Source of the DNA: Nitrospirota bacterium
Lineage (GTDB): Bacteria > JACPQY01
Assembly (NCBI GenBank): GCA_016180645.1
Contig: JACPAV010000007.1
Location: 140,951 to 204,950, forward strand
DNA length: 64,000 nucleotides
Direction: 5' to 3'
The stretch's first letter is position 1. Every line of letters starts with the position of its first letter. The notes below the pieces were generated by a model. The model was not told where the DNA came from and made no database searches. It saw only the letters and a list, made by a program, of their open reading frames with translations. The translations under genes and the position numbers were made by a program. Below, piece after piece: positions 27,128 to 41,107 of this stretch.

Positions 27128-28597
27128 TCATGACGATGGGACGTCTTCTTCAATCGCTCGGAACTGCCCCAATGCGGATTCGAGGTCATCGGCGATCTCG
27201 GCAGCGATGACGCCCGGGGAGGGAAGATTCGCCCACTCTTCGAGAGATTCGTCCTTCAGCCAGAAGATGTCGAGGTTGGCCTTGTCCCGCTTGATGAGTT
27301 CGTCGTAGGAGAAGGACTTGAACCGTTCGCTCTCCTTGCGTTGGTGACGGTTCTTCGGGTTGAAGCAGCGAACGAAATCGTTCAAGTCCTCGCGTTTGAG
27401 CGGGTTCTCCTTGAGCGTGAAGTGCATGTTCGTCCGGAGATCGTGGATCCAGAGCTTTTGCGTCCAGGGCTTTTCGCCGGCAGGTTTTCGGTCGAAGAAC
27501 AGGACGTTCGCCTTCACGCCTTGCGCGTAGAAAACCCCGGTGGGCAGACGCAGCAGGGTGTGAACGTCCGCCTGATGAAGGAGCTTCCGGCGAATCGTTT
27601 CCCCGGCGCCGCCTTCGAAGAGGACGTTGTCGGGGACAACAATCGCCGCCCTGCCGTGCTGTTGGAGCAAGGTGAACACGTGCTGGAGGAAATTGAGCTG
27701 TTTGTTGCTCGTTGTCGCCCAGAAATCGTCCCGATGGATGGTCAGGCTTTCGCGCTCGGCGCGCCCCTCGTCGTTCACAATGGTTACGCTGCTCTTTTTC
27801 CCGAAGGGCGGATTCGTTAGGACCATTTCGTAGTGGCGTCCGCCCTGGTCCGCCAGGGCATCCCGGACATCGATGGGAACCTTGTCCGCGCCATTCCCGC
27901 CGATGCCGTGAAGGAGCAGGTTCATGCAACAGAGCCGGGCGACGCCGTCAACCAGTTCAAGGCCGTAAAGCGTCCCGCTCTTGAGGCGTTTCTTCTGTTC
28001 GCGGTCCAACGTGTGGTGCTTGGCGATGTAGTCGTGGGCGGCGAGGAGGAACCCGCCCGTTCCGCACGCGGGGTCGCAGACGGTCATGCCCGGTTCAGGC
28101 CGCATCACCTCCACGAGGGCGGCGATGAGCGGACGCGGCGTGAAGTACTGGCCGGCGCCGCCTTTCACGTCCTCGGCGTTTTTCTGGAGCAGGCCCTCGT
28201 AGGCGTCGCCCTTCACGTCGGCGGATAGGGACGACCAATTTTCCTTGTCAATCAGGTCCACGATGAGTCGCCTGAGTTTTGCGGGGTCCTGAATCTTGTT
28301 CTGGGCCTTTCGGAAAACGAGTCCGAGCATGCCCTTTTCTTTTCCGAGCGATTCCAAGACGCGCCGGTAATGCGTTTCGAGTTCTTCGCCGTCGCGGGCC
28401 AATAGACTCGGCCAGTCGGAACCTTTCGGAACGGGTGAGGGCTTGTTGAGCGGAGGTCGCGTCTGCTCGTCCGCCATCTTGAGGAAGAGAAGGAACGTCA
28501 GTTGCTCGACGTAATCGCCGTACGACAGCCCATCATCCCGAAGGATGTTGCAATAGTTCCAGAGCTTCTGGACGAGTTGTTGGGAATGTTCGGCCAT
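27128..28597 (-). CDS. hsdM: Type I restriction-modification DNA methyltransferase M subunit
   Basis: A 489-residue N6-adenine methyltransferase subunit. It has the HsdM N-terminal helical domain (HSQQLVQKLWNYCNILRDDG, FLLFLKMADEQ), the SAM motif DPACGTGGFLLAAHDY and the catalytic NPPFGKKS. It should methylate host DNA with HsdS and form the nuclease with HsdR. ATG 28597 fits the family start; ATG 28618 would add seven residues. It is the last gene of the minus-strand hsd operon and lies 7 kb from hsdS, although the two are normally adjacent. A degraded copy of its 5' end is at 31962-32024. Confidence 0.93.
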   Translation of the reverse strand: MAEHSQQLVQKLWNYCNILRDDGLSYGDYVEQLTFLLFLKMADEQTRPPLNKPSPVPKGSDWPSLLARDGEELETHYRRVLESLGKEKGMLGLVFRKAQNKIQDPAKLRRLIVDLIDKENWSSLSADVKGDAYEGLLQKNAEDVKGGAGQYFTPRPLIAALVEVMRPEPGMTVCDPACGTGGFLLAAHDYIAKHHTLDREQKKRLKSGTLYGLELVDGVARLCCMNLLLHGIGGNGADKVPIDVRDALADQGGRHYEMVLTNPPFGKKSSVTIVNDEGRAERESLTIHRDDFWATTSNKQLNFLQHVFTLLQQHGRAAIVVPDNVLFEGGAGETIRRKLLHQADVHTLLRLPTGVFYAQGVKANVLFFDRKPAGEKPWTQKLWIHDLRTNMHFTLKENPLKREDLNDFVRCFNPKNRHQRKESERFKSFSYDELIKRDKANLDIFWLKDESLEEWANLPSPGVIAAEIADDLESALGQFRAIEEDVPSS

Positions 28598-28628
28598 ATC
28601 TACAGTGGTCCCAGACATCTGTTCGGAT

Positions 28629-29633
28629 TCATGCCAGCGTGTATCGTCCGGATTTTCTTGTTCCGCTGCGTTCTACCAGCTTCGCATCAATAAGCGGCGT
28701 AAGCAGATCCAGTGCCCCTTGTTTCGAGATCTTCAAGGCTTTCCAGATTTCAGCGGGCCTCATACCGCCACGGTCGCGAAGCAATTCGAGCAACTGTTCC
28801 TGTTTCGGTCTGAGCAGGAGCTTCTCTCCATGACATCCGGTAGACCATTCCCGGATTCGGCCCCAAACGTTTTCCAAGGTCACATGGACACCCTCGGCGG
28901 TATATTCGAGCCAGCTCGTCAGATTGCCGTCTGCCCGCTTGGGCTCGTCCAGGGCTTCGTAATATCGGTGCCGGTCGTTCCAATAGAACTCATCAACCGA
29001 GAAAATATGCTGCGTGTCGAAGCCTCGTCGGTACAGTTCCCACAAAGCCAGAATTCGGCCGGTCCGTCCGTTTCCATCGGCGAACGGGTGTATGTCCTCG
29101 AATCGGTGATGGACGACGGCCGATGTGATGACCGGCGACCACCGGAGCGAACGATCGTTCCACCACGCCAATAGTTCAGACATCAGGCCGGAGACTTGCA
29201 AGGGAGGCGGGGGCATGTGCTTCCCCACCCTGACTTGAATGTCCCGATACCGGCCTGCTTCCCCTTGTTGCATGACCCCCGTTGAGATAAGGCGGTGGAT
29301 TTCCAGAACATGCCCGTGAGTCACCACCTTCACGGAAGAATTCTTTTCAACGTATCGTAGGGCCGCCAGATGGTTCAAAACCTCGCGTTTTGACCGGGGC
29401 GTGGCGTCCGGCAGCGATTTGCCTTCAGCCAGTGCGCGCACTTTCTCCAACGTCAGTGGGTTTCCTTCGATTGCCGTGGACGAGTGGGCCGTTCGGGTTC
29501 GGCTGTCCCTTTGAAGTTTCGGGACCCATGGCGCCTGGAGGGTGGACATGAGGATTTTCTCGCGCAGGGCCGCGATCTTCTCGATCCACTCGACGAGGAG
29601 GCCGGTTACCTGAAAGAGGGGTTCGTATGCCAC
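28629..29633 (-). CDS. Fic family protein with winged-helix C-terminus
   Basis: A 334-residue Fic protein, predicted to transfer AMP or a related group onto a target protein. The active-site loop HPFADGNGRTGR is intact at about 182-193. An N-terminal inhibitory motif SSTAIEGN (residues 51-58) marks an autoinhibited class II Fic. The C-terminal 60 residues (MRPAEIWKALKISKQGALDLL) look like a winged helix. It starts at GTG 29633, and its end is close to the hsdM start. Fic genes are known companions of type I restriction loci; here they may monitor or modulate the system, which is inference. A second, unrelated Fic gene is at 37290. Confidence 0.9.
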   Translation of the reverse strand: MAYEPLFQVTGLLVEWIEKIAALREKILMSTLQAPWVPKLQRDSRTRTAHSSTAIEGNPLTLEKVRALAEGKSLPDATPRSKREVLNHLAALRYVEKNSSVKVVTHGHVLEIHRLISTGVMQQGEAGRYRDIQVRVGKHMPPPPLQVSGLMSELLAWWNDRSLRWSPVITSAVVHHRFEDIHPFADGNGRTGRILALWELYRRGFDTQHIFSVDEFYWNDRHRYYEALDEPKRADGNLTSWLEYTAEGVHVTLENVWGRIREWSTGCHGEKLLLRPKQEQLLELLRDRGGMRPAEIWKALKISKQGALDLLTPLIDAKLVERSGTRKSGRYTLA

Positions 29634-29657
29634 CCCGTCACACTACAGATAAGTCCA

Positions 29658-29679
29658 GTATTAGTCAAGTATGAGTCAA
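29658..29679 (-). promoter_or_regulatory. Tandem 11-bp direct repeat before fic, candidate operator with -35-like elements
   Basis: gtattagtcaa at 29658-29668 is followed at once by gtatgagtcaa at 29669-29679. Read on the minus strand, each unit contains TTGACT, 25-45 bases before the fic start; the proximal one has a weak TAGTGT 17 bases downstream. Confidence 0.4.
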
Positions 29680-29715: not shown

Positions 29716-29820
29716 GCCCGAGGATGCGGCGTGCAAGTTGGACTGGCGGAGGCGGGAGGCGCGAGAGAGGTCGGAGGCGACGAGTTTTTCGATCTCCTCG
29801 ACCGCGCTCAGGCGGCGCAT
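29716..29820 (-). pseudogene. Orphan hsdS 3' end (tail A)
   Basis: About 35 codons read RRLSAVEEIEKLVASDLSRA then SRLRQSNLHAASSG, matching the last conserved coiled-coil segment of the intact HsdS (35525-36928). The similarity begins where the DUF4276 gene ends; that gene's last codons run into it in another frame. The 23-base core starting gactggcggaggcggg (29741-29763) is identical to the same segment in the other copies. Confidence 0.8.
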
Positions 29821-30437
29821 TGAGAAGTGGGCCCCGTCCTCAGACTCTCCAGCATCTTCCTGATCTCGCGATAGCATTTGTCGAAGGAATCGGAATTGCG
29901 GGCCGTGGCCATGTCGAACACGGCGGCTAATGCCGGCTGATCATCCGTTTCAGAATAGCTCTCGCCGCTCGACATATGCGCACTTAACCAACCCTTTGCA
30001 TCGCGGATGCCCTCCGGATCTGGAGGAGTCGTGATCCTTGTTGCCAGGTTACGCTTGCCGCACAATGATCCCACCGCCGCAATGAACCACGCTTCGAATT
30101 CCCTTTTTGCCAGGATTACGGAAATGAGTGTGTCGCCCCGGGCGCGCCGCGCGCGTTCCAGAAGAATCGGCCCTTCCCTCGCTGGGCAGCAACCATTCCA
30201 ATCACAGTCAAGAATTACGAGGATTCCACCTCGCCCCCGGAGCTTCCTGGCGGCAAGCTCGACCGAGCGCTCGACTTCTCCAGCCTTGATGAGGCGTGAG
30301 GCGGGCACCCGAAGGGGAGGCAGGACATGAGGGACGAAGCCGGCATCTATCTCCTGCGCGATTCGGCGCACAAGAATCGGAACGGCCTCGATTTCCCCGT
30401 GGCCCTCCACAATTGCCGCAATTCTCACTTCCATCAT
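29808..30437 (-). CDS. DUF4276 family protein, TOPRIM-like
   Basis: A 209-residue protein of the DUF4276 family. Near the N-terminus IVEGHGEIEAVPIL supplies a TOPRIM-type Glu (residue 11), and VILDCDWNG supplies the DxD pair (77 and 79), consistent with a metal-dependent nuclease-like fold. AKREFEAWFIAA is another family hallmark. The ATPase gene upstream overlaps it by four bases (ATGA), so the two are translated together. ATPase plus TOPRIM pairs include OLD/Gabija- and PARIS-like defence systems, so an anti-phage role is plausible but not shown. Its 3' end runs into hsdS tail A. Confidence 0.75.
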   Translation of the reverse strand: MMEVRIAAIVEGHGEIEAVPILVRRIAQEIDAGFVPHVLPPLRVPASRLIKAGEVERSVELAARKLRGRGGILVILDCDWNGCCPAREGPILLERARRARGDTLISVILAKREFEAWFIAAVGSLCGKRNLATRITTPPDPEGIRDAKGWLSAHMSSGESYSETDDQPALAAVFDMATARNSDSFDKCYREIRKMLESLRTGPTSQCAA

Positions 30438-31654
30438 GCTTTCAGATCGGCAAAGAGATCCAATTGCGAAGGGACGATCTTGTCTAGAGCTTCCTCATCC
30501 GGTTCCAATTGGTTGAGTCGCATGAGTTCGCCGGCGCTGTACAGACGATCTCTGATGGCTGACCTACCGGCGTCGTCGAGCGGTCCGATCTTGGTTTCTC
30601 CATTCCGATTGATTACAGCCAGGATGTTATGGTCCGCGATTTCCTTATCGTCCAACAGATCGGGGCTGTGACTGGTTACCGCCGTCTGAGTGGTTCTCGA
30701 TGCAGCGCGCAATCCATCCCGCAATACGCCGGCCGCGCCGGGGTGCACCGCAGCTTCCGGCTCTTCGATGCCCACGAACAGAACTTTCTTTCGGCCGCCA
30801 TCGGATGACTGAAATAGTGCGGTCAAGACGCCAAGAGCGCGCAGGGTGCCGTCGGACATGTTCTCAGCCATGAACCGCCAAGGATCCCGGCTGGTTCCCA
30901 CGAGCTGGCGAAATTCCAGCGTTTCCTTCTTGCCGATATGTTTGACGTCTATGCCTTGGATGCCCGGTACCACCTTGGAGAGCAAACCTACGATGCGAGC
31001 ATGCAGATCCTTGTTTTCCCTTTCCAGTACCCCTAACACGCTCGCCAGATTACTCCCGTCACGCTTGAGGACGCTTCCGGGATCGGGGGGCTGTAAGTCG
31101 CGGATTTCGTCTGGGTTCAGATTATAGAATCCCATGTGGGACAGCGCATCATAGATTGGCCTGAAGGATGGCAAACCCGCCGCTGCCACCAGGTACAAAC
31201 GATCACATGCCGCGGGGGGTGTTACGTCCATGCTGGACTGCTTCACACTACCGTCGATCACTTTGTAAAAGTTCGCGGGCAGGCGGCCCTTGTCACGAAC
31301 ATGGCATTCTTCCTGCTGGACCTCGAATCCCCCCTTTTTCTGAGCACCGACACGAAAGGCATAGAATCCCTCGCTTTGATCCGGCAACCGCCAATCCACG
31401 CGGATGCCGAAATGGGTTGGATGCCCCGATGACCGCCGCCGAACCTCATTGATCCCGCCACGGTCTCGCAGGGCGTGCTCCAGAGATGAATTGATGGAAT
31501 CGGAAACCAGCCGTAGAGCGTCGAGAAAGTTGCTCTTGCCTGCGCCGTTTTGTCCGACGAGGAAGGTCAACGGACCCAATGCGACAGAGCACTCCTTGAT
31601 GCTCTTATAATTGTTCAGTACCACCCTGTTCAGAAAAATAGAATCAGGCACCAT
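30434..31654 (-). CDS. AAA family ATPase (SMC/RecF-like, AAA_15/AAA_21 type)
   Basis: A protein of about 406 residues with Walker A FLVGQNGAGKSNFLDAL near residues 33-48, an ABC-like signature segment MSDGTLRALGVLTALF, Walker B VLFVGIEEPEAAVHPG and a switch His in VTSHSPDLLD. This is the layout of chromosomal AAA ATPases paired with TOPRIM effectors. It is coupled by ATGA to the DUF4276 gene. The start is ambiguous: GTG 31657, ATG 31654 or GTG 31651 all follow GGGAGG closely. A 12-codon leader frame (MKRISVLWRTGR) ends in TGATG at this start. It has its own upstream promoter. Confidence 0.85.
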   Translation of the reverse strand: MVPDSIFLNRVVLNNYKSIKECSVALGPLTFLVGQNGAGKSNFLDALRLVSDSINSSLEHALRDRGGINEVRRRSSGHPTHFGIRVDWRLPDQSEGFYAFRVGAQKKGGFEVQQEECHVRDKGRLPANFYKVIDGSVKQSSMDVTPPAACDRLYLVAAAGLPSFRPIYDALSHMGFYNLNPDEIRDLQPPDPGSVLKRDGSNLASVLGVLERENKDLHARIVGLLSKVVPGIQGIDVKHIGKKETLEFRQLVGTSRDPWRFMAENMSDGTLRALGVLTALFQSSDGGRKKVLFVGIEEPEAAVHPGAAGVLRDGLRAASRTTQTAVTSHSPDLLDDKEIADHNILAVINRNGETKIGPLDDAGRSAIRDRLYSAGELMRLNQLEPDEEALDKIVPSQLDLFADLKA

Positions 31655-31704
31655 CACCTCCCGGTTCGCCAGAGTACCGAAATTCGTTTCATAGTGTATA
31701 GACG

Positions 31705-31732
31705 CTTATACTGCACTCGGTGATTCTTTCAA
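31705..31732 (-). promoter_or_regulatory. Sigma70-like promoter of the AAA-DUF4276 module
   Basis: On the minus strand TTGAAA (31727-31732) stands 16 bases before TATAAG (31705-31710), a near-consensus pair about 50 bases upstream of the ATPase start and within 75 bases of hsdS tail B. Confidence 0.65.
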
Positions 31733-31802
31733 ACGTCGGGTGCCCATCACCGGGGATTTCGGATACCAAAGCATTCGTGGCGGGTAGGGATCTCACCGGT
31801 TC

Positions 31803-31946
31803 CTACCACAGATCGCCGGAGAAGGCGGCGTGCAGGATGGACTGGCGGAGGCGGGAGGCGCGGGAGAGATTGGCGGCGACGAGCTTCTCCAATTTTCCGA
31901 CTGCGCTCAGCCGGCGCTCAGCCTCGGCGACGATGCGGTCGTATTC
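31803..31946 (-). pseudogene. Orphan hsdS 3' end (tail B)
   Basis: The frame reads EYDRIVAEAERRLSAVGKLE, continues through the conserved RASRLRQSILHAAFSG and ends GDLW-stop. It corresponds to the last 45-48 codons of HsdS, with a C-terminus different from the intact copy. It is preceded on the same strand by a scrap of hsdM 5' sequence rather than by target-recognition sequence. The shared core is at 31840-31862. Confidence 0.82.
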
Positions 31947-31961
31947 ATCCGATGATGATGG

Positions 31962-32024
31962 TAGGCCCCTCATCCCGCAAGATATTGCAATAATTGCCAG
32001 AGCTTCTGGACGAGTTGTTGCGGA
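31962..32024 (-). pseudogene. Degraded hsdM 5' fragment fused to hsdS tail B
   Basis: On the minus strand caacaactcgtccagaagct and following bases match the start of the intact hsdM, where they encode QQLVQKLW, and the match continues through tattgcaa and cgggatga. An extra base after the Trp codon breaks the frame. The fragment lies between the DUF1828 stop and hsdS tail B, so an hsdM-hsdS pair seems to have lost everything between the beginning of hsdM and the end of hsdS. Confidence 0.7.
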
Positions 32025-32063
32025 CTGTTCACGTCCCACCAATCAACGAGACGCCCCCCTTTC

Positions 32064-32831
32064 TCAAGAAGAAAGGTGGCCTAGCGCTTGGTCTTTCTGG
32101 GACCAATAGAGTGGTTGAACTTCGTAATTTCGCAGGACGTTCAAATACTCTTCATTCGGAGGGTTCACCGGATCGTTGATTATGGTAAACGCCTGCAAAG
32201 GTTCTGGCCTGATAAGTTTAACATCGGCGACCGCGAACGCGAACAAGGTCGATTGTTCCCTCGTGAGGTTGTTAATGGCTTGGAGGACTCTCTCCGGACA
32301 CTTGCTCGATTTTGGAAGGGCGAAATCGAACTTGTGATCAATGCCACCTTTTCCGGCCAGCTTGAAGTCTCTGAAGACGGATACCCCCCGCTCGCTGAGG
32401 AAATGCGCCACGTCTTCCTTGAAAAAAGACACGACGTGTTCTTGGCCCATGACGAATAGGTCGCCGATGGCCAGGATTGCTTGAATCAGATTGTGCTTCT
32501 TCTGCGGAAAATCGTGTTCACCACTCGTGACAACGATATCATCGTTCTCCCGGCGAACGCCAAATCCGTTCAGAATTGCCGTAAGATGAGCGTTCCGTTT
32601 TTCGGTGGAAAACTCAAGCCCCGATGCTCTGAGATCGCCTAAAGTCTCCCCGTCGTCGGTGAGAAGAAGCATTCCGTTCCTCTTTTCTACAAATATCTCA
32701 ATGGCATCATTGAATCTGTCGAGAAACGGCGTGGTGATACGGCAAGCCTCCCCCACCTTGGTGGCAGAAAACTCCTCTCTCAGCCATCGAAGGTATCGCT
32801 CAATCAGCACTTGGCAGTCATTCTTTGTCAT
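32064..32831 (-). CDS. DUF1828/DUF1829 domain protein
   Basis: A 255-residue protein with the DUF1828 N-terminal half (CRITTPFLDRFNDAIEIFVE, LLLTDDGETLGDL) and the DUF1829 C-terminal half (GIDHKFDFALPKSSKCPERV, FAVADVKLIRP). The biochemical activity is unknown. It begins inside the end of the previous gene (ATGA overlap at 32828-32831), so the two work as a pair. Its place in a run of defence-like modules within an hsd operon suggests a defence or toxin-antitoxin role; this is inference from context. Confidence 0.8.
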   Translation of the reverse strand: MTKNDCQVLIERYLRWLREEFSATKVGEACRITTPFLDRFNDAIEIFVEKRNGMLLLTDDGETLGDLRASGLEFSTEKRNAHLTAILNGFGVRRENDDIVVTSGEHDFPQKKHNLIQAILAIGDLFVMGQEHVVSFFKEDVAHFLSERGVSVFRDFKLAGKGGIDHKFDFALPKSSKCPERVLQAINNLTREQSTLFAFAVADVKLIRPEPLQAFTIINDPVNPPNEEYLNVLRNYEVQPLYWSQKDQALGHLSS

Positions 32832-33298
32832 GGCTGGAAGGTGGTTTGAAACTCGGGCCGGTTCAGAATTGCACAGAACGCAAGGAATTTATCGAACATC
32901 GCGAAGTCCGATCCGTCACCTCCAGATGGCCAAGACGGCAAGTCATGGAGTTCGTACGCCACGGCTACATCAAAGCCCTCACGATAGATGTGCAGATGGG
33001 TTCGATCTATCCTGATACCGGGTTTGTAAGGCGCATTGGGAGGGTTCTTGTGCGGTCTTGCCTTGAGGCAAAGCCGGGCCAGAACAATGACAACTCGTCC
33101 CCGCGTTTGATAGTGCACCTTGAACTGATCGCGCTTGCTGCGGTCATAATTCAAGATGAACACCTCTCTCTGATCCGTGGAACGCAGAGACCTCTCGTAT
33201 TTCATCGGCGTGCTGGGGGAGAACTCTATGAGAGTCCTTTCCAGGAACTCCTTGGGAAGAGCCAGCAAGAAATCAGCTTCAGACTGAGTCAGCGGCAT
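32828..33298 (-). CDS. DUF6978-like small protein, partner of DUF1828 protein
   Basis: A 156-residue protein beginning MPLTQSEADFLLALPKEFLE, with a beta-rich middle (FKVHYQTRGRVVIVLARLCL) and HLHIYREGFDVAVAYELHD followed by an acidic stretch. The pattern resembles the DUF6978 family, usually found beside DUF1828 proteins; I am only moderately sure of the family. It overlaps the DUF1828 gene by four bases. A promoter lies about 80 bases upstream, at the end of hsdS tail C. Confidence 0.65.
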   Translation of the reverse strand: MPLTQSEADFLLALPKEFLERTLIEFSPSTPMKYERSLRSTDQREVFILNYDRSKRDQFKVHYQTRGRVVIVLARLCLKARPHKNPPNAPYKPGIRIDRTHLHIYREGFDVAVAYELHDLPSWPSGGDGSDFAMFDKFLAFCAILNRPEFQTTFQP

Positions 33299-33369
33299 TC
33301 GTGCCTGATCATTTCTGCATCCTTAACAAAGACGCTCATCACGACGTCTCTGCCGGAGGGGATGCCCAT
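33289..33369 (-). CDS. Possible leader peptide of the DUF6978-DUF1828 module
   Basis: A 26-codon frame MGIPSGRDVVMSVFVKDAEM then IRHECR lies between the promoter at 33379-33406 and the DUF6978-like start, and its stop overlaps that start by ten bases. It has no recognisable family and may simply be chance, but its position would couple translation to the module. Confidence 0.3.
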   Translation of the reverse strand: MGIPSGRDVVMSVFVKDAEMIRHECR

Positions 33370-33378
33370 TTGTTTCAG

Positions 33379-33406
33379 AGTATACTTTCTCCGGCTGATT
33401 AGACAA
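33379..33406 (-). promoter_or_regulatory. Sigma70-like promoter of the DUF6978-DUF1828 module
   Basis: On the minus strand TTGTCT (33401-33406) is 16 bases before TATACT (33379-33384). The -35 lies within the last codons of hsdS tail C, so the tail supplies part of the promoter. Confidence 0.55.
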
Positions 33407-33560
33407 CTTCCCCATCGACCTCACGCGGAAGCAGATTTCCGGAAAATGCCGCGTGGAGAATGGACTGGCGGAGGCGGGAGGCGCGGAGGAGGTTGGCGGC
33501 GACGGTCTTTTCAAGTTCTTCAACCGCGCTCAAGCGACGTTCGACCTCGACGATGATGCG
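33399..33560 (-). pseudogene. Orphan hsdS 3' end (tail C)
   Basis: A frame of 53 codons reads RIIVEVERRLSAVEELEKTV, RASRLRQSILHAAFSG and NLLPREVDGEVV-stop, a natural-looking HsdS C-terminus that differs from the other copies after AFSG. It begins within a few bases of the tcmP stop at 33566. The shared core is at 33463-33485. Confidence 0.83.
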
Positions 33561-33565
33561 ATCAA

Positions 33566-34726
33566 TCAAGTCCAGATGAGAATATGTTTCTTGCCCCGAG
33601 CAGGTACTCTCTGCCGTTCCCGCAGTCCCTCGATGTTCAGGTGCCCTGCTTTCTGCCATTCCTCAAGCCACATTTTCAGATCGGACCCCCATGTCATCGG
33701 TTCGGACAACGCGAGCAGCCATGCCTCGTCGTAGGGCAAACGGCGCCGTTTCTCCAGGACCCCTAACAAGAGGCGACGCGACTTCTCCAGGTACCGCTCC
33801 CTCAATCGGTTGTAGTAGCTGGGGTCGTGCATCTCCTTGCTGTTGAATAGTTCGGATTGACCTGCCTTCGATATGCGCCGCCGTTGCTGAGCATCGGCGC
33901 GGGCCTTCTCCTGGACCTGCATGGCTTTCTTCTCGACATCCTTGAACACCTCGACGCCCTTCACATTCCGGGTTGCATAGATGAGGTGATAGTGGGTTTG
34001 GTCCTTTTGCGGATCAAGTACGATTGCCGTACAGGTGTGGTTGAACCCGCCCGTCCGCTTTACATTGAGAGCGTATTCGCCCACCGCCGCATCGTCTCGA
34101 TCCTGTCCGGACAATGTTGCAATTGTCTCGCGGAAATCTTCCGAGCCGAACATCTTCCTGAAGCTTTCTTTTGTCTCGTACTGTGGCGAATCAATGAATC
34201 GCCTTATGGCGCTGGTCATGAAATTGATCAGTACTTCCCCCGGCCGACATTGAAGGAGGGGGGCAATCGTATCGAGCTCGAACCCCGCCCAGCCGGACGG
34301 GTCAATCAGAATGAACGGAAAAGAGTTTTGGCCGCCACGCCGGACGAAATCGAGAATTTCTGGGATGGATTGTTCCAGGGCGGCATTTCGGGTCTCGATC
34401 GTCGCATAGTCGATGGTTCTTGCGAATTCGTCGAGCCTCGAATACGCCGTTGGGTCCGCTTCCAAGAAGAAACAGCGGATCGAGACATCCTTCCCACGTT
34501 GGGTGTGCGCGTCGCGAGCCTTTCGTAATTCATTCAATGCAGTCGCAAAAGAGCTGTCCGCAAACTTGTTCGAGCGGACGTTCCAAGGACCGGAAAAACA
34601 ATCCACATAAGTGATCGTGTTGCACCAGGAACCGATGATGTGCGCGAAACGCTCCAGGTATTTCTGGAGAACAAAATGTTTTACGAATGTTTGTTCGCGC
34701 CCAGCATACAATTCATCATTGCTCAT
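33566..34726 (-). CDS. tcmP: Three-Cys-motif partner protein TcmP
   Basis: A 386-residue protein of the TcmP family. It begins SNDELYAGREQTFVKHFVLQ and has YVDCFSGPW (a class I methyltransferase-like strand), FFLEADPTAYSRL and FPFILIDPSGWAGFELDTI. TcmP proteins are encoded next to three-Cys-motif radical-SAM-like proteins; the joint reaction is unknown. The partner is encoded directly upstream, and ATG 34726 overlaps its stop as ATGA, which fixes the start. The gene's 3' end touches hsdS tail C. Confidence 0.88.
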   Translation of the reverse strand: MSNDELYAGREQTFVKHFVLQKYLERFAHIIGSWCNTITYVDCFSGPWNVRSNKFADSSFATALNELRKARDAHTQRGKDVSIRCFFLEADPTAYSRLDEFARTIDYATIETRNAALEQSIPEILDFVRRGGQNSFPFILIDPSGWAGFELDTIAPLLQCRPGEVLINFMTSAIRRFIDSPQYETKESFRKMFGSEDFRETIATLSGQDRDDAAVGEYALNVKRTGGFNHTCTAIVLDPQKDQTHYHLIYATRNVKGVEVFKDVEKKAMQVQEKARADAQQRRRISKAGQSELFNSKEMHDPSYYNRLRERYLEKSRRLLLGVLEKRRRLPYDEAWLLALSEPMTWGSDLKMWLEEWQKAGHLNIEGLRERQRVPARGKKHILIWT

Positions 34727-35532
34727 CCACTTGCCCACCTTCGAGCTTCAGCTTCAATCTCCCGCATGGCCTGAAGTCGTTCTTCTTCCACCGGCGATCG
34801 CACCGGCGGACGTGTGGGGAATTCGTCATAGGTTTTCCCATCCAGTCTGCGACCGGCCTCGCTCTTGCGCACGCCGCCCCATTGCTTGAAAAAGAGGGGG
34901 ATTCCCGCCGCTCGACACTGGCGTCGAATCTTCCGCACCCACTCTGCTTTCATCGGCCTGGCGCCCGAACCGCTTTCACCGCCGACAATCACCCAGCCAA
35001 TACCGCGCAGATTGATTCTTCCCAGATCTTCCAAGAGGGGCTCGATTGAAAGGAATCGCATTTGAGCGGGCGCGGTTCGCAGGTGGTCTACGCGTGGCAG
35101 TCCACGTTTTCGGTTTTCGACGCTCGCGCCCCACCAGATATGCTCTTGCCGACCCGCTCCGCGCAACTTTGAGCGCAGCATCGTCACCATTCGTGCAGTG
35201 CGCTTGGTAAGAACCTGAAATGTGTGCCAATTGGCCCGAACCATGACTTGTGCGACGGCGGCAATGTAATCGTCCGGGATGTCCTCGTGGAAGAGGTCGC
35301 TCATCGAATTGACGAAAATCATCCGGGGGGTGCTCCAGCGTAGTGGATCGAAAAGCTTCTCAGGGACCAGGCGAAGCTCGAACCCATCCTCAAAGGGATG
35401 GCCGGGTACGCCGCGAAACCGCTCGGCGAAGGTCTCGGCATAGCAATGGGCGCAACCCGGACTGATCTTGGTGCACCCGCGAACCGGATTCCATGTTGCA
35501 TCTGTCCACTCAATCTTGGAGTGATCAGCCAC
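34723..35532 (-). CDS. DUF5131 (phage Gp37/Gp68-like) three-Cys-motif protein
   Basis: A 269-residue protein starting KIEWTDATWNPVRGCTKISP with cysteines 20, 27 and 30 in a Cx6Cx2C pattern followed by YAE, as in the DUF5131/Gp37-Gp68 family related to radical-SAM proteins. Further hallmarks are FVNSMSDLFHEDIP, FQVLTKR, WWGASVENR and GWVIVGGESG. It is probably an iron-sulfur protein acting with TcmP. The GTG start at 35532 lies inside the last codons of hsdS (8-bp overlap), so this module depends on hsdS translation and shows no promoter of its own. Confidence 0.88.
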   Translation of the reverse strand: MADHSKIEWTDATWNPVRGCTKISPGCAHCYAETFAERFRGVPGHPFEDGFELRLVPEKLFDPLRWSTPRMIFVNSMSDLFHEDIPDDYIAAVAQVMVRANWHTFQVLTKRTARMVTMLRSKLRGAGRQEHIWWGASVENRKRGLPRVDHLRTAPAQMRFLSIEPLLEDLGRINLRGIGWVIVGGESGSGARPMKAEWVRKIRRQCRAAGIPLFFKQWGGVRKSEAGRRLDGKTYDEFPTRPPVRSPVEEERLQAMREIEAEARRWASG

Positions 35533-36928
35533 GAGAAAGCCCTCCTGAAAACGCTTGGTGAAGGATCGACTGGCGGAGGCGGGAGGCGCGGGAGAGATTG
35601 GCGGCGACGAGGTTCTCCAGTTCTTCGACCGCGCTCAACCGGCGCTCGACCTCGGCGACGATGCGGTGTTGCTCGGGGAGGGGCGGAATGGGAACACAGT
35701 CAACTCGTAAATCCTCCAGATGTATATGCTGGAGTCCCGAACCTTTCGGAACCATTTGTGCTTGGACTTGCGGTGAGGACAGAGAAATGCCCAGGAAGTC
35801 GTTCATTTCGTAAAGGACAGGCTTAACCAACGCGACTGAAACGAAAATGCTGAATTCAGTGTCAGTCTTCACCACCCTGACCACACCGAGCGTGCCGTCT
35901 TTAGAAATCAGGATGTCTCCCTGCTCAGGGTTCGCTCGTTTGATGAACTCCTCATGATCTTTTTGCGTCACATGATTCAGCTTTTTGAAGTCGACACCGG
36001 GGCCTGCTGTCAGATTACGTACAGTAACGAACGGCACACCGCTTGAAACGTAATTGGGCTTCTTGTGAACGCCATCGACAACTTTTGTTGATAACGAGTC
36101 AACCGAAGCCCATGTCCAGCCCTTGGGAAGCGGCGGGAGGTTGGAGGTGTCGGGGGGCTTGGGTTCCGTGTAAGCTTTCAGCGGTCGGCCGTCAGCTCTC
36201 AGCTTTTTTCCCGACGCTTCACGGCGGGCGGTGAGGATGCGTTCGAGGAGTTGGGCGCCGGATTCGAAGGGGCGGCCTTCCTTCCGGGCGAGTTCGGCCT
36301 CCGTTGGGACGAGTTTCCCTTCGCAGGCGGCTTTGAGCACGGCGGCTCGGTAACGCTTCAGATTCTCCTGCACGCGCTTGAGCGCGGCCACCCCCGCGTC
36401 CAGCCGCGTGAACTGCTTCTCGATCTCCGCGACGATTTGAACCTGTTCATTCGCGGGAGCAAGTGGGAAAGTGATTTTGCCAAGCGTTTGCCCGTTGACG
36501 TTTGGCTGTCCGATCCCGCGTTTGCCCGTTTCAATTTGCGTCCAGTAGTCTGGACTTTGAAAGTAAGCATAGAGATAACGAGGTGAGACTTCAGGTGATA
36601 GGCGGACACGGATCAGATACGAGGCAAATACAGAAGGAGGACATTCTCCAATAAGGTAACTTTTCCCGGTCGTCGCGCCGGTCCGCGCAAATACTATGTC
36701 ACCGGGCAAGAGTCGGTATTTCTGAAAATCTGTTTTCGAGATGCTGCAAGATGGAACTGAAGACCAGATTACTTTTCCATCTTGAATATCGGTGATGCGA
36801 AGAAAACGCGGCCCGTCCCTTCCCTGGATTGCTGATGCAGTGTACCCATATTGAACGAGGGGAGCCACATCCTTGACACGAACACGTTTCCACAAACGTG
36901 AGGTGACTCGGGAACGATCAGATCTCAT
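35525..36928 (-). CDS. hsdS: Type I restriction-modification specificity subunit S
   Basis: A 467-residue DNA-recognition subunit with the expected two target-recognition domains and two conserved helical spacers. The central spacer is near 180-215 (EIEKQFTRLDAGVAALKRVQ, YRAAVLKAACEGKL), and the terminal one (HRIVAEVERRLSAVEELENL) ends LHQAFSGGLSRG. It sets the methylation and cleavage site of the HsdM/HsdR complex. ATG 36928 overlaps the stop of a 13-codon leader as ATGA. Its last 45 or so codons recur as three orphan tails downstream, while hsdM lies 7 kb away. Confidence 0.92.
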   Translation of the reverse strand: MRSDRSRVTSRLWKRVRVKDVAPLVQYGYTASAIQGRDGPRFLRITDIQDGKVIWSSVPSCSISKTDFQKYRLLPGDIVFARTGATTGKSYLIGECPPSVFASYLIRVRLSPEVSPRYLYAYFQSPDYWTQIETGKRGIGQPNVNGQTLGKITFPLAPANEQVQIVAEIEKQFTRLDAGVAALKRVQENLKRYRAAVLKAACEGKLVPTEAELARKEGRPFESGAQLLERILTARREASGKKLRADGRPLKAYTEPKPPDTSNLPPLPKGWTWASVDSLSTKVVDGVHKKPNYVSSGVPFVTVRNLTAGPGVDFKKLNHVTQKDHEEFIKRANPEQGDILISKDGTLGVVRVVKTDTEFSIFVSVALVKPVLYEMNDFLGISLSSPQVQAQMVPKGSGLQHIHLEDLRVDCVPIPPLPEQHRIVAEVERRLSAVEELENLVAANLSRASRLRQSILHQAFSGGLSRG

Positions 36929-36966
36929 TCCGCCAACGCCTCGTTGAAATCGAGCGTAGAGGTCAT
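36925..36966 (-). other. 13-codon leader frame resembling the hsdR 3' end, coupled to hsdS
   Basis: MTSTLDFNEALAE-stop ends in ATGA with the hsdS start. LDFNEALAE resembles LDELNEALAA at the end of HsdR, and the intact hsdR likewise ends in an ATGA overlap with the next gene. It is probably what remains of an hsdR end retained for translational coupling; the match is short. Confidence 0.45.
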
Positions 36967-37051
36967 ACCCTCACTATTACCCTTATTTGAGGGCATTACC
37001 CTTTTTCGCAGACACACGCCTGCCTGAACCGGCTGTTCGCGGCCCAAACTG

Positions 37052-37084: not shown

Positions 37085-37186
37085 AATCGCTCCCGGATCA
37101 GATTCGTTCCCATTTGGCATCCCGTCCTTTTCCCAGGCACCGAATCCTTCTTGCGCGCCGCGCCTCAGCCAAGTCTCGTTACCTCT

Positions 37187-37243
37187 TCACGCGGCGAGCG
37201 CCTCGTTGAGTTCATCCAGCAGCTTCGGAAAAGACTCGCCGAA
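37187..37243 (-). pseudogene. Orphan hsdR 3' end
   Basis: The codons FGESFPKLLDELNEALAA-stop repeat the end of the intact HsdR (FGELFPKLLDELNEALAA) just beyond the inserted fic gene. Upstream of this segment the resemblance is lost. It mirrors the arrangement of hsdS tails after the cargo modules. Confidence 0.8.
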
Positions 37244-37289
37244 GGACGGGCGGGTCTTTCCGAAGCATTCCACGATATTACCCTTATTA

Positions 37290-38351
37290 TTACCCTCTTT
37301 TAAGGGTAATACCTCTTCTCGTCCAACGGGTGCCGGGACCCCGACCAAGGCACGCCACCCCGCCGCTCTTCTGAAGGGCGCGAAGCACGTGCCGAATCAT
37401 GTCCCGGCTCACGCCCGGGCAGGCCCGCTCAAGATCGGTGAGGCTGAAATCCGTGTCGAATCCCCGAATGGCGTCCTCGATAAGGGCCGTCTTTGCTCCC
37501 CGAGGCGCCTTGATGTTCCCCACGCGTTCCTCGAATTCTTTGTAGGCGGTCTTGAGGGTGTAGAGGAGATAATTTGCGAACGGCCAGGGGTCGTGCTTGC
37601 CCTCATGCCAACCATGCGAACTTTGTTCAAGGGTCTCGTAGTAGCGGTCCTTGTTCTGCTCGATGAGGCGCTCCAGGCTGATGTAACGACCCACCTCGTA
37701 GCCCAGATGGTAGCACTGAAGCAGGAGGAGAAGTCTTGAAACGCGGCCGTTGCCATCGCGGAAGGGATGAATGCAGAGAAAATCGAGATTGAAGGCGGCC
37801 AGGACGATCAGGGGATGAACCGCACGGTCTCGCATGGCCGAGCCCCAAGCGTTCACAAGGTCGCGTGTGGAGGCCGGAGTCTTGCCGGCGGGAACCGTCT
37901 TGAATCGGACGCGGATACGCCCGCCCGGGTACTTTTCGATGATGTCGCTGTCCTTTTCCTTGTATTTTCCGGCGTCCCATATTCTTCCCCTGGCCAAACG
38001 GTGAAGCTCCCGCACGGCCTTCTCCGTCACCGGCAGCCTCGATCCCTTCTCATGGATGAGTTTGAGCGCCTCCCGGTAGCCGTGGACTTCCTCCTCGTTG
38101 CGATCCCGGAGGACGGGCCTGCCGAGCACCAAAGTGCGGATTCGCTTCTGATCGACGACAACGCCCTCGATCCGGTTCGAGGAGATCGCGCTTTCGATCA
38201 AGGCGTGTTCGCGCAGTACCTTGAGACGCTGAGGAGACTGGCGGGTGAAGAGCTCCTGCCTTCCGCGCGATTCGCCGAGTTCGGCGAGGTACCATGCCGT
38301 GGCCGTCGGAACGGAATCCATGCCTTTGGCCAGCAGGCGAAACGTCATCAT
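37290..38351 (-). CDS. Fic family protein (second copy, different subfamily)
   Basis: A 353-residue Fic protein with active loop HPFRDGNGRVSR near residues 195-206 and N-terminal inhibitory motif SSNRIEGV near 57-64, so a self-inhibited AMP-transferase-like enzyme is expected. The C-terminal region (FSLTDLERACPGVSRDMIRH) is a likely winged helix. It overlaps the hsdR stop as ATGATG, so it is coupled to hsdR. It has little likeness to the other Fic protein (28629) outside the core. A copied hsdR 3' end follows it. Confidence 0.9.
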   Translation of the reverse strand: MMTFRLLAKGMDSVPTATAWYLAELGESRGRQELFTRQSPQRLKVLREHALIESAISSNRIEGVVVDQKRIRTLVLGRPVLRDRNEEEVHGYREALKLIHEKGSRLPVTEKAVRELHRLARGRIWDAGKYKEKDSDIIEKYPGGRIRVRFKTVPAGKTPASTRDLVNAWGSAMRDRAVHPLIVLAAFNLDFLCIHPFRDGNGRVSRLLLLLQCYHLGYEVGRYISLERLIEQNKDRYYETLEQSSHGWHEGKHDPWPFANYLLYTLKTAYKEFEERVGNIKAPRGAKTALIEDAIRGFDTDFSLTDLERACPGVSRDMIRHVLRALQKSGGVACLGRGPGTRWTRRGITLKRG

Positions 38352-41107
38352 GCCGCCAACGCCTCGTTGAGTTCATCCAGCAGCTTTGGAAACAACTCGC
38401 CGAAAAGCTGATGGGCCTTACCCAAGCCTCCGCGCTGACTGAAGGGAGAGTAGTCGAAGTCTTGTGCCTCGATGCTGAGGCTCGTGGAGATATGATCTCT
38501 GATGAATTCGAGCCACGCAAGCTGCTCGGCGTTGAACAACGTCCCCTTCGACGATTTTGACTCCAGCCACGTCTTGAATCGGGTGTGGACGCTCTCGGCA
38601 AACGGTTGAAGGATAGGTTGGTGGGCCAAAGAGAAATGAACCAATGATACAAGGTCGGCGAACCGGCCCGTTTGCGAACGTCCCCGCACTTTCGTCGGCT
38701 CGACGGAAGCAAACGCATCCCATAGACGATCCTCCGTCCACGCCGCGTGATTTTCCCGGAGTTTCCGTTCCAAATCCTTCAACATGGCCTCCGTCAACCG
38801 GTGGCGATAGGGCCGCGAATAGAGGATCTGAAGCGCCTCGATCTCGGACTTGTGCTGCTCGATGTATTCGCGAAATGACGCTGTGGTCTTCCGAGCGTTA
38901 AGATCAGACTGGGGCGTGCCGCCCGCAAAGAGTACGCGGTCCCGTGAAATCACGTCGATCACTTGGTCCGCCGTCCGATGCACTTTGATCAAGAGTTGCC
39001 GCAGATCCGGATTCCCCGCGAGCGGCGCGGCAGCCGCCTGCGCAAGGCCGTCGGCGGCAGTTTTCAGGGCGGCGGCCGTCGGCTCCTTGTAGCCCGGCGT
39101 ACTTCCAGCCGCAGCCTCTGCGATTTTGTCCGGATTCACGGCATCCAGGAGCCTGCCGGCGATCTCGGACAGGGTCTTCCCTTTCGCGGTCGCCGTCACT
39201 TCATCGGCGAGGTGTTCATCAAGCCGCTTTTCCAGTCGGATGAGACGGCCGGCCAGACTTTCGAGAGAGTCCGCATCCCGTGCCCCGAGGGCAACGGCAT
39301 CCAGGAGCTTCTCGAATAAAACATTCGGCTTTTTCTCGAATGGACGAGAATCGGTCTTGTCGCGTTCACAGACCCCGACGGCGTCCACGATCACGAACCG
39401 CGATTTTCTCTTGATTCCGGGGTTGACCTGTTCCATTTCGGTCTGGGAAATGACGCGCACGCCCCGGCCCTTCATCTGCTCGAAAAAACTGCGGGATTTC
39501 ACGGAGCGCATGAAAAAGACGATTTCCAACGGCTTGATGTCGGTTCCCGTCGCGATCATATCGACGGTGACGGCAATGCGAGGAAAGTAGCTGTTCCGGA
39601 ACGTCTTGATGAGGGTTTTCGGGCTTACGCCGGTGGTGCGATAGGTGATCTTCTGGCAAAAGTCATTCCCCTTGTCAAAGACTTCGCGGCAGATGCGGAC
39701 GATGTCCTCCGCGTGGGAGTCGTCCTTCGCGTAGATCAACGTCTTGGGCACATCCTCCCGGCCCCGAAAGATGTCCGTGAACAACTTTTCCTTGAAGGTT
39801 TTCAGCACCGTGCGGATTTGGTCCTCGGCGACCACGTCCCGGTCGAGTTGTCCGGCCTCGTAGCTCAGATCTTCATCGAGCAGCTCCCACCGTTTCTTTC
39901 GCGTCAGTCGGTCGCGCTTGTCGACGTAGAATCCGGCGTCGATTTTCGATCCCGCGTCCGTGATGTGCGTCCGGATTTGGTAGACGTCGTAGGGCACGTT
40001 TACGCCATCCGTTACCGCCTGCTCATGACCGTATTCCATCACAAGATTTTGTTTGAAGAATCCGAATGTCTGTTTCGAGGGCGTGGCCGTAAGTCCGATG
40101 ATCTTGGCGTCGAAATACTCCAAGACCTGCCGCCAAAGGTGGTAAATCGAGCGATGGCATTCGTCCGTGATGATGAAATCGAACGTCTCGATGGGGAATT
40201 TCGGGTTGTATTCGACGGGGACGGGCTCCTTGAATACGGATTCCGCCGACTCGATGCCAAGTTCATCCAGATCGGGCGGCGGTTCCGACTCGCCCTTCAA
40301 CATCGAATAGACCCGCTGGATGGTGCCGATGACCACGCGGGCCGGGGAGTCGAGGGTGTTGGAGGTCAAATGTTGAACGTTGTACTCCTCTGGGAACTTG
40401 TAATTGTTGACCGGGGAAACGAATTGCTGAAATTCTTTCAGGGTTTGTTCGCCCAGATTGCCCCGATCCACGAGGAAGAGAATGCGGCGCGCGCCGGCAT
40501 ACTTGATCAGGCGATAAACGAAATTGACCGCGGTGAAAGTCTTGCCTGAGCCGGTGGCCATTTGGATGAGAGCGCGGGGGCGGTTGGCGGCAAAGGATTC
40601 TTCCAGTTTCTTGATGGCGCGTATTTGGGCGGACCAAAGGCCCTTCTCGATCAGTTCGGGCATTTCGCGAAGGCGCTGGTTGAGCTGATTTCCTGCGTTC
40701 ACCCATTCGAGCAGGGTCTCCGGTCGATGGAATGCAAACACAAGGCGGCTGCGCGGCTCCGGATCGAGTCCGTTGGTGAAGTAGGTTTCCGTCCCGGTGC
40801 TCTCGTAGGCGAATGGAAGCGGATCCCGCCACGCCTGCATGCCGGAGGGGACTCCCCTGATGTACTTCCCGGACTGTTCTTCGACCCCGCTGAGGGTGTG
40901 CCCTTCTTTCTTGGCCTCGACCGTTCCGATGGCCTTGCCGTCTACGAACAGGGTGTAGTCGGGCTCTCCCGTCTTCATGGAGAGGTTGCATAGCGCGACG
41001 CCCCTGGATGCGGCCAGGTTGGCGGCCGCTTTTTCCTGTACGACCCACCCACATTGATCCAATAAGCTATCGATGGTGGTTCGAGCTTTGTCTTCAGGAG
41101 TTCTCAT
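38348..41107 (-). CDS. hsdR: Type I restriction enzyme R subunit (EcoKI/EcoR124-like helicase-nuclease)
   Basis: A 919-residue restriction subunit. The nuclease core has GEPDYTLFVDGKAIGTVEAK near residues 46-65; Walker A ALIQMATGSGKTFTAVNF is near 180, the DEAD-type box IITDECHRSIY near 316, and motif III LTATPSKQT near 341. The C-terminal helical domain ends LFGELFPKLLDELNEALAA. It translocates DNA and cuts unmodified DNA with HsdM and HsdS. It is the first gene of the minus-strand operon, directly after a recognisable promoter, and its stop overlaps fic. Confidence 0.95.
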   Translation of the reverse strand: MRTPEDKARTTIDSLLDQCGWVVQEKAAANLAASRGVALCNLSMKTGEPDYTLFVDGKAIGTVEAKKEGHTLSGVEEQSGKYIRGVPSGMQAWRDPLPFAYESTGTETYFTNGLDPEPRSRLVFAFHRPETLLEWVNAGNQLNQRLREMPELIEKGLWSAQIRAIKKLEESFAANRPRALIQMATGSGKTFTAVNFVYRLIKYAGARRILFLVDRGNLGEQTLKEFQQFVSPVNNYKFPEEYNVQHLTSNTLDSPARVVIGTIQRVYSMLKGESEPPPDLDELGIESAESVFKEPVPVEYNPKFPIETFDFIITDECHRSIYHLWRQVLEYFDAKIIGLTATPSKQTFGFFKQNLVMEYGHEQAVTDGVNVPYDVYQIRTHITDAGSKIDAGFYVDKRDRLTRKKRWELLDEDLSYEAGQLDRDVVAEDQIRTVLKTFKEKLFTDIFRGREDVPKTLIYAKDDSHAEDIVRICREVFDKGNDFCQKITYRTTGVSPKTLIKTFRNSYFPRIAVTVDMIATGTDIKPLEIVFFMRSVKSRSFFEQMKGRGVRVISQTEMEQVNPGIKRKSRFVIVDAVGVCERDKTDSRPFEKKPNVLFEKLLDAVALGARDADSLESLAGRLIRLEKRLDEHLADEVTATAKGKTLSEIAGRLLDAVNPDKIAEAAAGSTPGYKEPTAAALKTAADGLAQAAAAPLAGNPDLRQLLIKVHRTADQVIDVISRDRVLFAGGTPQSDLNARKTTASFREYIEQHKSEIEALQILYSRPYRHRLTEAMLKDLERKLRENHAAWTEDRLWDAFASVEPTKVRGRSQTGRFADLVSLVHFSLAHQPILQPFAESVHTRFKTWLESKSSKGTLFNAEQLAWLEFIRDHISTSLSIEAQDFDYSPFSQRGGLGKAHQLFGELFPKLLDELNEALAA

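Follow-up and report, generated by a model that had tools for sequence, protein, structure and literature searches.

Defence modules in a Type I restriction-modification operon of a Nitrospirota bacterium are bordered by short orphan copies of the ends of the operon's own genes. Such gene-end scars recur at other hsd loci, where they keep the orientation of their gene and a strict side rule: copies of 5′ ends lie upstream and copies of 3′ ends downstream of the gene they resemble. The scars stem from different alleles, and one joint could be read together with both of its parents. We suggest, with a probability of about two in three, that the scars arise by slightly off-register illegitimate recombination between versions of a locus which hold different cargo in one slot.

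The operon and its cargo

The window, that is, the whole stretch of 64,000 nucleotides analysed here, belongs to a genome of 65 contigs and 4.7 Mb. The locus is a Type I restriction-modification operon of the order R-S-M whose gaps are occupied by several independent cargo modules. Read along the minus strand, the locus runs hsdR, Fic1, hsdS, DUF5131-TcmP, tail C, DUF6978-DUF1828, tail B, AAA-DUF4276, tail A, Fic2 and hsdM; thus, three module pairs and two Fic genes are foreign to the span between hsdR and hsdM. The features, with the evidence in brackets, are as follows.

38348-41107, minus strand: hsdR, Type I restriction subunit (PADLOC REase_I, 2e-44)
37290-38351, minus strand: Fic-family cargo gene 1 (Fic1) in the hsdR/hsdS gap (Pfam Fic, 3.7e-13)
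37187-37266, minus strand: orphan hsdR 3′ end R1, 80 bp, 80% identity with the intact hsdR end (self-blast, alignment)
36925-36947, minus strand: orphan hsdR 3′ end R2, 23 bp, which overlaps the start codon of hsdS (ATGA) (self-comparison, alignment)
35525-36928, minus strand: intact hsdS, with its conserved 3′ end at 35544-35667 (repeat and Pfam searches)
34723-35532, minus strand: cargo module 1a, DUF5131, 8-bp overlap with the hsdS end (Pfam, 1.3e-97; PDC-M41B/M30B)
33566-34738, minus strand: cargo module 1b, TcmP-like (PDC-M30A, 6e-12; tblastn to annotated TcmP)
33439-33562, minus strand: tail C, orphan hsdS 3′ end that begins at the stop codon of TcmP (repeat search, alignment)
32828-33298, minus strand: cargo module 2a, DUF6978 (Pfam, 2.9e-26; PDC-M24A)
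32064-32831, minus strand: cargo module 2b, DUF1828/DUF1829 (Pfam; PDC-M24B, 4e-83)
31965-32031, minus strand: orphan hsdM 5′ end, about codons 10-30, frameshifted, adjoining tail B (88% identity with its own hsdM and the hsdM of G001, see below)
31816-31939, minus strand: tail B, orphan hsdS 3′ end (repeat search, reading frames)
30434-31657, minus strand: cargo module 3a, AAA ATPase (HEC-01A, 1e-160)
29808-30437, minus strand: cargo module 3b, DUF4276, stop codon inside tail A (HEC-01B, 1e-68)
29717-29818, minus strand: tail A, orphan hsdS 3′ end (repeat search, reading frames, self-comparison)
29648-29679, minus strand: 32-bp element, whose counterpart in the orthologous G001 locus immediately precedes hsdM (94% identity, alignment)
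28629-29633, minus strand: Fic-family cargo gene 2 (Fic2), directly upstream of hsdM (Pfam Fic, 4.5e-22; PADLOC SoFic, 8e-54)
27128-28618, minus strand: hsdM (Pfam N6_Mtase, 5.8e-67)

A sequence-only reading of this DNA had proposed identities for the three modules, and the Pfam and PADLOC searches bear them out (DUF5131 with TcmP, DUF6978 with DUF1828/1829, AAA with DUF4276); the TcmP-like protein has no Pfam match and is recognised by its match to PDC-M30A and to plasmid proteins annotated as TcmP. The PADLOC families matched are HEC-01A/B, PDC-M24A/B and PDC-M30/M41, with Fic2 matching SoFic. Judged by these matches, the modules and the SoFic-type Fic2 belong to known or candidate defence families. 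The reading had also seen no integrase or transposase, and in our Pfam and PADLOC scans neither these nor any other recombinase was found among the proteins scanned in or near the arrays. New with respect to that reading are the two Fic genes, the two orphan hsdR 3′ ends, the hsdM 5′ fragment and the 32-bp element upstream of hsdM.

Orphan ends of hsdS, hsdR and hsdM in the window

A 124-bp direct repeat is present in four copies, at 29717-29840 (tail A), 31816-31939 (tail B), 33439-33562 (tail C) and 35544-35667 (end of the intact hsdS), which are 72-87% identical to copy B. With the reading frames, this repeat confirms the earlier claim that three orphan hsdS 3′ ends separate three two-gene modules. 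The frames were verified, as was the 23-base core CGCGCCTCCCGCCTCCGCCAGTC, which tails and intact gene indeed share without a difference. Tails B and C have the same first codon (D-R-I), and tail A begins about 8 codons further on. In an hsdS search of the whole genome the three orphans lie in open frames of 79-87 aa, whereas the intact gene encodes 481 aa. Tails C and A begin at or within the stop codon of the cargo gene before them, and tail B is preceded by the hsdM 5′ fragment. An inverting, phase-variable hsdS arrangement was not found: every copy lies on the same strand and is without recognition domains.

The codon comparison gave nonsynonymous/synonymous ratios of 0.19-0.28 between the tails and 0.21 for two intact genes. 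Ratios this low show that the copies diverged under constraint as parts of working full genes, and they support the claim of the sequence-only reading that the tails derive from different hsdS alleles. As this divergence is older than the orphaning, dN/dS is unable to tell functional from dead tails. Tail A carries amino acid changes typical of decay and has lost conserved residues.

The other two hsd genes have left ends as well. Both orphan hsdR 3′ ends follow Fic1, and 67 bp of the hsdM 5′ end lie beside tail B. Thus, duplicated ends are a property of the whole operon and not of hsdS alone. On the minus strand (36905-37030 and 37170-37345) both orphan hsdR ends are preceded by a similar repeat-rich, operator-like stretch with GGGTAAT/TTACCCT motifs. 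R2 is itself a 13-codon frame overlapping the hsdS start; with the repeat-rich stretch it is possibly a promoter plus leader.

The nearest relative among the genomes compared is a groundwater 'Nitrospirae' MAG (JACPQY010000011, here G001). At its orthologous locus hsdR is 83.5% and hsdM 89% identical to the window, the recognition domains of hsdS and the cargo differ, and the tails are absent. The 32-bp element that lies upstream of hsdM in G001 sits between tail A and Fic2 in the window, which argues that tail A once neighboured hsdM. Tail A would then be the oldest hsdS end, and Fic2 was probably inserted later, directly upstream of hsdM. The element contains TTGACT-type direct repeats (TTGACTCATACTTGACTAATACTGGACTTATC) that are kept upstream of hsdM in G001; it is likely a promoter or operator, which now stands ahead of Fic2.

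Survey of gene ends at other loci

We searched 386 diverse genomes, most of the surveyed genomes being MAGs, with a model of the tail. Orphans were present in the window's genome and in genome G370 only; about 20 intact genes were found elsewhere. A scan of contigs with narrow back-translated patterns yielded 10 loci. We then compared each hsd gene with its own locus, in a first pass at 81 loci and in a second at 115 loci; the second pass covered 281 hsd ORFs, with 825 other ORFs as controls. The hsd genes were recognised with few reference proteins, so that other Type I families are under-sampled, and the sampling is partly biased as G370 was selected for its tail.

The 115 loci contained 22 orphan gene-end copies of 26-172 bp and 80-97% identity, distributed over 10 loci. 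Nearly all same-strand orphan matches of hsd genes (22 of 23) are gene ends, where random placement predicts 17%; counted by locus the figure is 10 of 11 (binomial P ~2e-7). The side rule holds throughout: all 12 copies of 5′ ends lie upstream of their own gene, all 10 copies of 3′ ends downstream, and all have the same orientation. Scars were seen in five of 40 loci selected by hsdS (L134, L142, L145, L149, L162) and in one of 40 selected by hsdM (L222), both sets chosen irrespective of scars. Blastn self-hits of the 825 control ORFs gave about 15 same-strand orphan end matches, a lower rate than for the hsd genes, and interior copies too; two of these end matches belong to an ORF that runs antisense to the window tails. 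Because the genome with the L149 scar (G225) is a single contig, assembly error is unable to explain all cases.

For hsdS the distance between junction and gene end ranges from 14 to 78 codons and varies by locus, and the ends of hsdR and hsdM are used too; across these junctions and ends there is no fixed crossover point in a conserved site. The sequence-only reading had taken the conserved hsdS end for the recombination site through which cargo is gained. Recombination at hsd gene ends does appear to gain cargo between hsdS and hsdM, and G370 provides a second array with three tails. A dedicated hsdS site has to be given up, because the ends of hsdR and hsdM do likewise; the variable breakpoints and the tail-free PDC-M24 modules of other genomes (see below) also count against it.

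Other arrays and junctions

The array of G370 (L125) is independent of the window's and carries toxin-antitoxin-like cargo. Its order is hsdS, a 291-aa ORF, a tail remnant, an ORF with a helix-turn-helix protein and a third ORF, a tail, further ORFs, a tail, and a helix-turn-helix/IrrE-like protein with a further ORF. In the same locus (L125:2019-2244) the hsdM 5′ end stands in three tandem copies directly upstream of hsdM. The locus L131 (genome G054) is built like the window, with three modules of abortive-infection or toxin-antitoxin type (a Gp49-like gene, AbiL-like genes and AbiE) and two hsdM 5′ scars between them. These scars contain a 66-bp segment missing from the resident hsdM.

The most informative joint is found in L134 (genome G210). 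Going from hsdS to hsdM, 598 bp comprising a module and the first 98 bp of hsdM are 94% identical to L155 and L139. Past base ~98 of hsdM the sequence switches to one that is 91% identical to L132 and L157, which at this region carry another small module ahead of hsdM. Microhomology at the joint is at most ~3 bp, and it is the sole joint that could be read with both parents. In L149 the hsdM 5′ end passes, at the joint, into the upstream border of a 138-aa module which is complete in L157. Shared cargo together with an hsdM 3′ scar is present in L142, L157 and L099, and at this place hsdM is joined directly to the next gene in L146, L149 and L155.

Scars of the fused type, in which the start of the downstream gene runs into the end of the upstream one, are present in the window (hsdM-hsdS), in L162 (hsdM-hsdS) and in L031 (hsdR-hsdS). 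The last, at L031:7588-7971 on a Verrucomicrobiaceae contig, joins the hsdR 5′ end in frame to the hsdS 3′ end; no other hsd gene was noticed nearby, and two or three small cargo-like genes then follow. Among the hsdM alleles of the G040 phylum identity varies along the gene, giving a mosaic look that is in keeping with frequent exchange.

Origin of the scars

We suggest that the scars form in the following way. Versions of a locus would hold different cargo in one gap between a gene X and a gene Y. Recombination between two versions would be slightly off-register and take place close to where a conserved gene end gives way to unrelated cargo, with pairing anchored by hsd gene homology and completed by an illegitimate joint. 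The product would read X, module 1, start of Y joined to end of X, module 2, Y. No complete gene need be lost, and both modules would be stacked. What remains as a scar would be a short orphan piece of Y from its 5′ end, a short orphan piece of X from its 3′ end, or a fusion of the two, and repeated events could build up the array of the window. Long repeats may be absent because they would recombine and lose the module, or because joints would form near the edge of homology; the two reasons are not exclusive.

The observed sides of 5′ and 3′ scars are those demanded by this product structure. The joints of L134 and L149, the fused scars, the L131 array, the cargo with hsdM 3′ scar in L142, L157 and L099 and the comparison with G001 speak for it as well, and a single off-register event of this type would account for each of these products. 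Two findings count against off-register recombination. The L134 joint cost the first gene of module 2 most of its length, so that stacking does not always preserve function, and scar length never exceeds 172 bp, unlike what is expected for random illegitimate joints alone. Direct parents of the window's three junctions were not found among the genomes compared, nor was a trio of donor, recipient and product from one species; the window junctions would be explained by analogy with L134 and G001.

The idea of the sequence-only reading can be generalised to a cassette, an integrase-free analogue of gene cassettes in which a module travels as a circular or linear unit together with 30-170 bp from the end of an hsd gene, where RecA- or annealing-protein-driven recombination inserts it. 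Such cassettes would yield the same products. They would suit the tail-delimited module arrays in the window, L125 and L131, and the 8-bp overlap of hsdS and DUF5131 looks as though tail and cargo travelled jointly. We nevertheless consider them unlikely. The occurrence of the same modules without tails had been named beforehand as an outcome against the sequence-only reading, and for PDC-M24 this is what we find: among homologues from 386 genomes no tail was present at eight strong PDC-M24B loci of other genomes or at a second copy in the same genome, and one of the tail-free loci (L089) lies within an HsdM-linked operon. Further, TcmP-DUF5131 is encoded on two plasmids (Rhizobium and Sinorhizobium) without hsd genes, and the L134 joint falls inside a module. 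The tail-free relatives and the plasmid neighbourhoods rule out tail-bearing cassettes as the usual form of the modules. As far as tested, the tails do not appear to be part of the cargo modules; tail searches of plasmids and of viral contigs gave no match. The second same-genome PDC-M24 pair (L094:2830-13418, G000:C18) is situated between proteins of ~1000 aa and 918 aa in a large defence-like operon without tails.

Ordinary decay of duplicated hsdS genes was the alternative named in the sequence-only reading; copies of the complete gene would have arisen together with cargo, and deletions would then have spared only the 3′ ends. The changes in tail A are of this kind, and L031 and L099 are decayed loci. 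Yet none of the 115 loci has a long hsd gene remnant, hardly any pieces come from gene interiors and the side rule is strict; we regard random decay as quite improbable and rejected by the end-and-side rule. There is even less to be said for a mobile element that would insert cargo close to the ends of hsd genes with a target duplication of 25-170 bp. The scars do resemble variable direct repeats flanking cargo, but the copies are 80-97% identical instead of identical, the 66-bp segment of the L131 scars is missing from the resident hsdM, no transposase or integrase is among the proteins scanned, and one insertion cannot yield the fused hsdM-hsdS and hsdR-hsdS scars. That selection keeps the gene ends as short coiled-coil proteins or as translated leaders coupling the downstream gene is hardly credible: an in-frame ATG at the start of tail A, a TTG at the start of tail C overlapping the TcmP stop, and the 13-codon frame of R2 with its ATGA overlap would fit, but the hsdM 5′ scars are unable to serve in this way, the window's hsdM fragment is frameshifted and tail A has lost conserved residues.

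Relation to known systems

The nearest known process is homology-facilitated illegitimate recombination, where homology anchors one side and a few bp finish the other, and for which additive products are expected (PMC6382021, with reference to de Vries and Wackernagel 2002, Prudhomme 2002, and Meier and Wackernagel 2003). The L134 joint with its short shared sequence is alike; the difference is that here we infer the process from natural junctions. With integron gene cassettes and with islands at gene 3′ ends the window shares module arrays with short repeats and duplicated gene 3′ ends. It differs from both in that no recombinase is seen, the crossover point is not fixed, the repeats differ in sequence and 5′ ends are duplicated too.

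Embedding itself is known. Embedded defence genes have been used for discovery ('guilt-by-embedding'; the PADLOC HEC and PDC families), and the gap between hsdS and hsdR was termed a potential recombination hotspot (PMC12255303 for both, PMC12988326 for the former). The window modules match such families (HEC-01, PDC-M24, PDC-M30/M41) and are seated between hsd genes, whereas the sections of the two papers on this approach cover embedding without gene-end scars. The rlo and mlo genes of Campylobacter are a long-known case of genes that lie between hsd genes (PMC5183652, citing Miller et al. 2005). There, too, variable ORFs occupy the hsdR-hsdS and hsdS-hsdM gaps, and L131 includes an RloB-like protein in its cargo; scars at module borders are unmentioned in the account of these loci in PMC5183652. 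In the open-access literature searched, a scope outside which a preprint on embedding falls (10.1101/2024.01.29.577857), we found no account of gene-end scars or of the side rule. Thus, embedded cargo is known, the scars are without a description that we could find, and their mechanism is what we infer.

How defence genes enter restriction operons is unexplained in the literature examined, although their presence is known. Similar seams at loci of unrelated bacteria suggest a recombination route that collects defence genes without a transposase. The scars render this mechanism testable, as stacking from allele to allele by homology-anchored illegitimate recombination instead of by mobile elements. 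Directional gene-end scars are a signature for which genomes can be scanned, and since they mark functional module borders they help to delimit new defence systems. It is more doubtful whether Type I restriction-modification operons are general gene-collecting loci, in which defence modules would spread as units with short hsd ends as homology arms and be stacked without integrase or transposase; we hold this for rather improbable. If it were true, one could read off from the orphan gene ends the order of acquisitions and the borders of modules.

Further gene-end copies

Some additional copies may be mentioned. In the G040 phylum G185 and G198 (both at contig ends) and G203 have further candidate orphans. 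A Nitrospira contig (L033:9990-10087) carries a short decayed hsdS tail, from AEVERRLS on, directly after an unrelated gene. In L156 the 3′ end of a cargo gene (1109-2560) is repeated upstream of hsdS at 6232-6274; cargo ends may thus leave scars too.
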